DNA of 35,118 nt from NCBI GenBank assembly GCA_015492515.1, contig WGEZ01000061.1, positions 1 to 35,118 of the forward strand, in the 5' to 3' direction. Both the position numbers and the translations under genes were made by a program. Positions 29,775-33,242 of this stretch are shown here, piece by piece. Within the stretch, counting starts at the first letter, position 1. The number at the start of each line of letters is the position of its first letter. Source of the stretch: Nitrospirota bacterium. Its GTDB lineage: Bacteria; Nitrospirota; Thermodesulfovibrionia; Thermodesulfovibrionales; JdFR-85. Below the pieces are notes generated by a model. It was given only the letters and a program-made list of their open reading frames with translations. It made no database searches and was not told the origin of the DNA.

Positions 29775-30200
29775 ATGGGTTTCTGGGATGAACTGAGGAA
29801 GGACATCAAGAAGGGCATCGACGAGGGGCTTCACGTCTTCAAGGAAGGGACGGCGGCGATCATGAAGAAGACGGGCATCCTCACCGACGACGTCAAGAAG
29901 AAGATCGCCGTCTTTGAGCTGAAGCAGAAGATACAGGTCAACCTCACCGAGCTCGGCGGCAGGGTCTACGAGATCGCATCGGACAGGAGGAAGAACCCGC
30001 TTACGGATGCCAGGGTGAAGGGGATCGTGGAGAGGATCAAGAAGATCGAAGGTCAGATCGCGAAGATAGAGGGGAAGAAGCCGGCTCCGAAGGCTCGGAA
30101 GACCGGTGCAAAGGGGAAGGCGAAACCGGCCGCGGGAAAAACCGCAGCGAGGAGACCGCAGAGAAAGGCTGCGGCATCCGGGAAGACGACGGAGAAATGA
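29775..30200 (+). CDS. Hypothetical protein with Lys/Ala/Pro-rich histone-H1-like C-terminal tail
   Basis: 141 aa; preceded by AAGGAGG; helical N-terminal region, then tail KKPAPKARKTGAKGKAKPAAGKTAARRPQRKAAASGKTTEK; overlaps the next start (ATGA). Confidence 0.8.
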   Translation: MGFWDELRKDIKKGIDEGLHVFKEGTAAIMKKTGILTDDVKKKIAVFELKQKIQVNLTELGGRVYEIASDRRKNPLTDARVKGIVERIKKIEGQIAKIEGKKPAPKARKTGAKGKAKPAAGKTAARRPQRKAAASGKTTEK

Positions 30201-30445
30201 AGAGGGTCGTCGTATATACATCGCCTACGTGAAGCGACTGTCAGGCACTGAAAGGGTTCCTTTCGGAAGAGGGTGTGGAGTTCGTCGACAGAGACGTTTC
30301 AGCCGACGAGGCGGCGAGGACTGAACTCCTCGAAAGACATGGAAGGCTCGCAACCCCGACCATAGTGATAGACGGAAAGGTCTTCGTAGGGTTCAAGGAC
30401 AACAGGCAGGAGATAGAGAGGGCGCTTGCCGGCTCGCTGACCTGA
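30197..30445 (+). CDS. Glutaredoxin-like protein, candidate selenoprotein (in-frame TGA as Sec at codon 12)
   Basis: Reading through TGA 30230-30232 gives MKRVVVYTSPTUSDCQALKGFLSEEGVEFVDRDVSADEAARTELLERHGRLATPTIVIDGKVFVGFKDNRQEIERALAGSLT: Grx fold with TPT and GF motifs and UxxC in place of CxxC. Missing from the ORF track because of the TGA. Confidence 0.78.
30248..30266 (+). promoter_or_regulatory. Candidate bacterial SECIS hairpin
   Basis: CTGAAAGG-GTT-CCTTTCGG (8-bp stem with one G-U); the apical loop starts 23 nt after the TGA and its first base is G. Confidence 0.65.
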
Positions 30446-30494: not shown

Positions 30495-30731
<237 letters not shown>

Positions 30732-30836: not shown

Positions 30837-33242
30837 ATGAGGACCTTGACGATACCGGTGAAGGGGATGACCTGTGCATCCTGCGTGAAGGCCGTTGAGA
30901 ACGCCCTCCGCAGGATCGACGGTGTGACGGACGTCTCCGTGAACTTCGCCTCCGAGAAGGCGACGATCAGCGTGAGTGAAGACGTCCCTCTGGAGAGCAT
31001 CGTACAGGCCGTCAAGGCCGAGGGATACGACGTGGCCACGTTGAAGACGGAGTTCGCCGTGAAGGGGATGACCTGCGCTGCCTGTGTGGCCGCCGTGGAG
31101 CGGGCCCTGAAGGGGCTTTACGGGGTGGTGGGCGTGAACGTGAACCTGGCCTCCGAGAAGGCGTCCGTGGAGTATATACCCACACTCACCGGTTTCGAGG
31201 AGTTCAGGAAAGCGATAAAGGCCCAGGGCTATGAGGCCGAGACGATAACGGAGGAGTTCACCGACAGGGAGAAGGAGGCCCGTGAGAGGGAGTTCCGTGA
31301 TATCCTCAGGAGGTTCCGGCTGAGTGCCGTCCTCTCCGTCCTGATCCTCCTCGGAAGCCTCACGGGCATCCCCGTGCTGTCGGAGAGGTTCGTGCTCTTC
31401 GCCCTTGCCACACCGGTTCAGTTCTGGGCGGGTCTCAGGTTCTACAGGGCCGCCTGGGCCGCCGCCAGACACTTCTCGACGAATATGAACACCCTCGTCG
31501 TGGTGGGCACCTCCGCGGCATACCTCTACAGCGTGGTGGCCACCTTCCTGCCCGGTATATTCGAACGCGGCGGGCTGGAGGCCCATCTCTACTTCGATAC
31601 CTCAGCGGTGATAATCACCCTCATCCTGCTGGGCCGCCTCCTCGAGGCGAGGGCGAAGGGCAGGACGTCCGAAGCGATAAGGAAGCTGATCGGCCTCCAG
31701 GCGAAGACGGCGAGGGTCGAGCGTGACGGCAGGGAGGTGGAGGTACCGATAGGAGAGGTCGTGGTCGGTGACATCGCCGTCGTCCGGCCCGGTGAGCGTA
31801 TACCGGTGGACGGTGTCGTGGTGGACGGATACTCCTCGGTCGATGAATCAATGCTGACCGGTGAGAGTATGCCTGTAGAGAAGTCCGTCGGCGACCAGGT
31901 CTTCGGCGGGACGATCAACAAGGTCGGCAGTTTCAAGCTGAGGGCCACCAGGATCGGCAAGGACACGGCCCTGGCGCAGATAATCCGGCTTGTGGAGGAG
32001 GCCCAGGGGAGCAAGGCCCCGATACAGAGGCTCGCCGACAAGGTGGCCTCCATATTCGTGCCGACCGTGATCGGGATAGCTGCGGTCACCTTCCTTGTAT
32101 GGAACTTCCTCGGCCCTGAGCCTGCCTTCACCATGGCCCTCATGAACTTCATCGCCGTCCTTATCATCGCCTGCCCCTGCGCCCTCGGTCTCGCCACACC
32201 GACGGCCATAATGGTGGGGACCGGGAAGGGCGCCGAGCGGGGCATCCTGATAAGGGATGCCGAGGCCCTCGAGACGGCCCACAAGATCGACACGGTGGTT
32301 CTGGACAAGACGGGCACCATCACGAAGGGCGAGCCTGAACTGACCGATATCCTGAGCACCGATACCACCGAGGAAGAGAGCGTGCTGCAGATTGCGGCCT
32401 CGGCCGAGAAGGTCTCGGAACACCCCATCGCCGAGGCCATCGTGAGGAAGGCCAGGGACCTCGGGCTCGACCTGGTCGAGCCCGATGACTTCAAGGCCAT
32501 CCCCGGTGGTGGGATCAGGGCGAGGGTCGGCGTCGACGAGGTCTTCATCGGCAATCCCTCCCTGCTCGCCAGGGAGGGTATAGACCCGGCACCGGTCTCG
32601 GGCATCGTCGACAGACTCACCTCGGAGGGCAAGACAGCCGTCCTCGTCTCCGTGAACAGGGAGCTGAAGGGGGTCTTCGGGATATCGGACTCGTTGAAGG
32701 AGGGCTCCGTGGAGGCCATCGCCGAACTCCGGGCGATGGGGATCGAGGTGGTGATGCTGACGGGAGACAACGAACGGATGGCGTCCCGCATCGCCGGGGC
32801 CGTGGGTATCGAGAGGTTCTTTGCAGAGGTCCTTCCCGAGGGGAAGGTGGATATCATAGAGCGGCTGAAGGCCGAGGGGAAGGTGGTGGCCATGGTCGGC
32901 GACGGTATAAACGATGCACCGGCCCTTGCAGAGGCGGACGTCGGTATAGCGATCGGCACAGGAACCGACATCGCCATGGAGGCCTCGGACATCACCCTCA
33001 TAAAGGGCGACCTGAGGAGCGTGGTGGAGGCCGTCAAGCTGAGCAAGCTGACCCTCAGGACGATCAAACAGAACCTCTTCTGGGCGTTCTTCTACAACGT
33101 CATCGGCATCCCCATAGCCGCCGGTGTGCTCTACCCCTTCGGCGGTCCGCTGCTGAACCCGATGTTCGCCTCCGCCGCCATGGCCTTCAGTTCCGTCTCC
33201 GTGGTGAGCAACTCCCTGAGGCTGAGGAAGAAGTCCCTCTGA
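30837..33242 (+). CDS. copA: Copper-translocating P-type ATPase with two N-terminal HMA domains
   Basis: 801 aa; GMTCASC and GMTCAAC metal-binding motifs, CPC ([15 protein letters not shown]), [29 protein letters not shown]. Confidence 0.96.

Follow-up and report, generated by a model that had tools for sequence, protein, structure and literature searches.

A predicted selenocysteine glutaredoxin encoded beside a copper-pump gene in Nitrospirota

The window, by which we mean the whole 35,118-nucleotide stretch of Nitrospirota DNA analysed here, contains a short gene that continues through an in-frame TGA codon and lies upstream of the gene for a copper-translocating ATPase. The genes and features of the locus are these:

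29775–30200, + strand: upstream gene, 141 aa with a Lys/Ala-rich tail, whose stop overlaps the ATG of grx; a neighbour kept in family f1
30197–30445, + strand: grx, predicted selenocysteine (Sec) glutaredoxin gene; taking the in-frame TGA as Sec gives 82 aa, and the frame closes at TGA 30443–30445; identified from Pfam and orthologues
30230–30232, + strand: TGA codon predicted to specify Sec; as residue 12 it opens the UxxC motif (here U-S-D-C); identified from the alignment, with Cys in L025 and L032
30239–30241, + strand: codon for the second, resolving Cys (Cys15), invariant in alignment A1
30248–30266, + strand: SECIS-type hairpin, CUGAAAGG-GUU-CCUUUCGG, 8 bp with apical loop GUU; identified from bSECIS limits and covariation
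30495–30683, − strand: gene for a small 4Fe–4S ferredoxin of 62 aa, lying between grx and copA; kept in family f1
30837–33242, + strand: copA, P1B-type copper-translocating ATPase (CopA type) that begins with two HMA domains (GMTCASC and GMTCAAC); a neighbour of grx in both f1 and f13

The initial annotation had proposed a glutaredoxin gene of the NrdH-type fold starting at ATG 30197, crossing TGA 30230–30232 and ending at TGA 30443–30445. Reading the sequence and translating it with TGA as U reproduced these positions exactly, together with the proposed ATGA overlap between the grx start and the upstream stop (30197–30200). The gene is, as had also been remarked, absent from the mechanical list of open reading frames. 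The read-through product, 82 residues beginning MKRVVVYTSPTUSDC and ending RALAGSLT, has Sec (U) as residue 12, and matches the Pfam Glutaredoxin profile (PF00462) with 60.8 bits against a gathering score of 22.9 (E = 1.5e-16), which upholds the fold assignment. The features expected of a glutaredoxin are all there: a profile score above the gathering score, a thioredoxin fold, a C/UxxC motif that opens helix 1 (the helix runs from residue 13 in the AlphaFold model, pLDDT 88) and a proline loop, TPT, whose residues T53-P54-T55 are invariant in alignment A1. The TGA does fall on the first active-site Cys, with the second retained, as had been claimed. Among NCBIfam models the nearest are YruB, UXX-star, Grx3 and NrdH, each scoring under its own curated cut-off. 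YruB (TIGR02196) scores best and matches 11 of the 11 members of A1; we nevertheless reject membership of that family, the score being 71.6–71.7 bits against a curated cut-off of 88.55. The product of the locus is a glutaredoxin of NrdH/YruB type.

Glutaredoxins with Sec at the first position of UxxC are an established bacterial selenoprotein family, as the initial annotation had noted. Members within PF00462 are described from Geobacter, Moorella, Alkaliphilus and a Sargasso Sea set, with a bacterial SECIS just 3' of the codon, as here (passages in PMC13188914, PMC1088965 and PMC1794560). The best match in the PDB, by both sequence and fold, is cGrx1, glutaredoxin-1 of Clostridium (Alkaliphilus) oremlandii (7c10; 49% identity over 73 aa by sequence, 48% identity and TM 0.86/0.93 in the structural match), a native selenoprotein (PMC7642778) that shares the position of Sec as well as the fold. 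It differs in coming from another phylum (Firmicutes), in having MsrA as its proposed partner (PMC7642778), and in its motif, U/CPxC, whereas the window protein has U-S-D-C and the Asp ahead of the Cys is invariant among the Nitrospirota sequences of A1. The passages on Sec-glutaredoxins in PMC13188914, PMC1088965 and PMC1794560 name neither Nitrospirota members nor a copper-ATPase neighbour, and a search of open-licence papers found no report of a Nitrospirota Sec-glutaredoxin, nor of any Sec-glutaredoxin paired with a copper ATPase. What is new, then, is the Nitrospirota lineage and the conserved place beside a copper-pump gene; the Sec-glutaredoxin itself is a known kind of protein.

Orthologues were sought first in 100 relatives and then in 396 genomes of the phylum. 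Among 20 close orthologues, counting the window's own, 18 have TGA at residue 12 and two have a Cys codon (TGC in L025, TGT in L032). The Cys homologues that the initial annotation had suggested looking for at this position thus exist, and close orthologues have Cys or Sec there and nothing else. Sec/Cys12, Asp14 and Cys15 are invariant across A1, and three of the matches are contigs of public Nitrospirota metagenome-assembled genomes. More distant relatives, family f15 (L071–L075), have TGA in all five cases. Seven Cys glutaredoxins (L035–L040 and L077) were considered and rejected as orthologues; they belong to other families and form a separate, deeply split group in the tree.

The host genome, of 2.19 Mb in 148 contigs and with a listed completeness of 100%, has the full set of genes whose presence had been put forward as a check: selA (E = 1.7e-182), selB, selC and selD. 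A single tRNA-Sec scores above the Rfam cut-off (71.9 bits, anticodon TCA). The selB gene is present, although broken by contig ends (L012 and L016, on G000:C69 and G000:C117). The selD gene (L019:1501-2412, on G000:C131) has an in-frame TGA of its own, within the active-site stretch UAGK, and with grx this makes at least two selenoprotein genes in the genome. Counting against the Sec reading, a strong tRNA-Sec match was lacking in two other genomes with the TGA, G002 and G075, though both have selA; both assemblies are fragmented, and the absence probably reflects assembly gaps.

The window hairpin begins 15 nt past the UGA, with its GUU loop 23 nt past it. The limits given for bSECIS elements in a passage of PMC13188914 are a stem of 4–16 bp, a loop of 3–9 nt, a G in the first two loop positions, a distance of 16–37 nt from the UGA and an MFE ≤ -7.5. 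In stem length, loop size, loop G and distance from the UGA the hairpin conforms to these values, and its energy (-7.7 to -8.8 kcal/mol, varying with the flanks) is near the limit; several orthologues, including several of f13, have hairpins weaker than the published energy limit. Shuffled sequences fold nearly as well (z = -0.64 for the window hairpin), and a hairpin passing the same rules follows 7.8% of the sense codons of the window's genes. Folding energy in the window is uninformative by itself, and the case for a putative SECIS element is one of conservation and covariation only. Across 22 TGA-bearing sequences, 93.8% of the cells of the in-register hairpin are paired, against 43–65% with the partner strand shifted out of register, and double (compensatory) changes occur at four of its pairs (e.g. 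the basal C-G becomes G-C in four of five f15 sequences, and an A-U becomes G-C in L069/L070). Of the two Cys orthologues, L025 has lost the hairpin and L032 has a different, shifted one. The window stem contains codons of low usage in window genes (AAA, 6% of Lys; CTT, 8% of Leu), and synonymous recoding folds as well in 3% of draws for the window and in 0.4–16% for seven other Sec orthologues, L029 being the exception. Searches of the window itself for Rfam families and for tRNAs returned nothing.

What comparison of sequences establishes is the gene itself, a predicted Sec codon followed by the hairpin, selection on the frame, and a genome equipped with the Sec machinery. A selenoprotein glutaredoxin is, in our estimate, encoded at this locus with a probability of about 0.95, and that the gene specifies a selenoprotein of some kind is a shade more certain still. 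Other readings of the TGA fare poorly. It might be a genuine stop, or a misread TGC or TGT, with the downstream frame a relic: a single-base error is always possible in a metagenome assembly, and the two Cys orthologues place TGC and TGT one change away. Yet the same TGA stands in 17 other close and five distant orthologues from separate assemblies, it is the only type of stop seen inside the gene, and 3' of it the frame is open and under purifying selection (pN/pS 0.19–0.43). Recurrence in separate genomes and purifying selection therefore exclude sequencing error or a pseudogene; conservation across genera refutes that reading, to which we give next to no weight. Since an open frame through UGA cannot by itself identify the amino acid, the codon might also be read as Trp or Cys, through a variant code or near-cognate read-through. 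This is scarcely more credible, because TGA ends 11 of the 15 genes counted in the window and so does act as a true stop, no component of the Sec machinery is missing, the SECIS-type hairpin covaries, and homologues have Cys, not Trp, at the site. A further alternative accepts Sec and places the protein in the UXX-star group, whose Sec may serve to bind a metal and not as a redox residue. The UXX-star families (NF041212, NF041211 and NF041114) are likewise small glutaredoxin-like selenoproteins for which a metal link has been proposed, the neighbourhood here is metal-related, and NF041212 (Uxx_star) scores 55.4 bits. That score is, however, below the curated cut-off of 66, and we reject membership; the window protein is under the cut-offs of these families and retains the resolving Cys, which is invariant here (UxxC), whereas UxxT is listed for UXX-star family 1 in the relevant part of PMC13188914. 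We consider the UXX-star alternative improbable, if less so than the two readings before it.

The predicted Sec-glutaredoxin gene keeps company with a copper ATPase gene, a link that the initial annotation, sound on the gene and on its Sec reading, overlooked. All 12 of the 12 f13 loci have copA immediately after grx. In family f1, copA lies 3' of grx beyond the inverted ferredoxin gene in five of the seven loci with enough sequence; in the other two (L026 and L032) its place is taken by another gene, putatively radical-SAM-like. The absence of CopA from these two argues against an obligate copper link. Upstream, f1 loci retain the 141-aa gene between ATP synthase genes and grx; it has no match in Pfam or NCBIfam. 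Both HMA domains of the window ATPase have CxxC sites. The distant f15 sequences form a second Sec-glutaredoxin group, with U-x-F-C and the same hairpin, and two of the five lie near copper or metal genes: close to L087 are genes for an HMA protein and a P1B ATPase, and close to L091 those for a metal-sensing repressor, DUF302 and a CopA-like ATPase.

If the Sec-glutaredoxin is made as predicted, the hairpin, 23 nt past the codon, would guide SelB in bringing Sec-tRNA(Sec) to UGA 30230; Sec12 would act as the attacking selenolate of the U-S-D-C site, and Cys15 as the resolving thiol. As to what recharges it, searches of the genome with two models, for a GCS2-type glutamate–cysteine ligase and for the ATP-grasp domain of glutathione synthetase (GSH-S_ATP), gave no match. 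The gshA/gshB genes that a glutathione-dependent glutaredoxin would call for in its host were thus not detected by these two models, which weighs against feeding by glutathione and not against the fold. Thioredoxin reductases (TrxR) are present. Because of these two observations, TrxR appears likelier than glutathione as the source of electrons, and the protein is probably a TrxR-fed redoxin, that is, a dithiol/selenothiol reductant. A possible donor is a 533-aa TrxR with a fused N-terminal thioredoxin/glutaredoxin-like domain (L080:820-2421, on G000:C6).

What such a reductant would serve is more conjectural. One proposal, suggested by gene neighbourhood and analogy, is copper handling: the protein might keep the CxxC metal sites of CopA (or of a copper chaperone) reduced, or hand Cu(I) over to them. 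Human Grx1 transfers copper to the metal-binding domains of ATP7B (PMC7057996), and there too a copper P1B-ATPase has a glutaredoxin acting on its HMA domains; Grx1 is eukaryotic and Cys-based, however, and the likeness is one of function, not of membership. The competing view is that the protein is a general-purpose Sec-glutaredoxin (for peroxiredoxin, MsrA or ribonucleotide reductase, for example), its adjacency to CopA being inherited gene order with no functional meaning. The proposal that C. oremlandii cGrx1 reduces MsrA (PMC7642778) speaks for a general role, as do the opposite-strand ferredoxin gene that parts grx from copA in f1 and the two f1 loci in which CopA is missing. Harder to reconcile with it are the recurrence of the pairing in two families whose neighbours otherwise differ (the upstream genes are those of ATP synthase in f1 and different ones in f13), the direct adjacency throughout f13, and the HMA, CsoR-type or CopA genes close by in two f15 loci. 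We rate the general-purpose role at even odds and a functional link to copper at somewhat below that. More doubtful is the fullest version of the copper proposal, in which a dedicated, TrxR-fed selenothiol redoxin would reduce or load the CxxC domains of CopA in bacteria that lack glutathione. If true, it would be a selenium-based bacterial counterpart of Grx1 and ATP7B. The conserved pairing with CopA suggests that selenium may take part in copper handling, a role open to testing. The locus is, besides, a clean case of a selenoprotein gene invisible to standard gene finders, and we found no earlier report of a Sec-glutaredoxin from its phylum.

One orthologue is informative about the loss and recovery of Sec. 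L029 (L029:1501-1734, minus strand, G001) is without the common hairpin and has instead AGGCCU-GUA-AGGCCU, with a loop 16 nt past the UGA, which fits the bSECIS model. In the tree it clusters, with moderate support, with both Cys orthologues. By count on the tree, two losses of Sec account for this as well as a single loss and a later regain through a new SECIS; because the SECIS has moved, the evidence leans towards regain in L029. A tree of three neighbour genes gave weak support for how the f1 members with Cys are ordered. Apart from these orthologues, weak redoxin matches with one in-frame TGA occur at G028:C4:106134-106358, at G083:C15:85455-85655 and in L047 (G079:C458), and are possibly other selenoredoxins.
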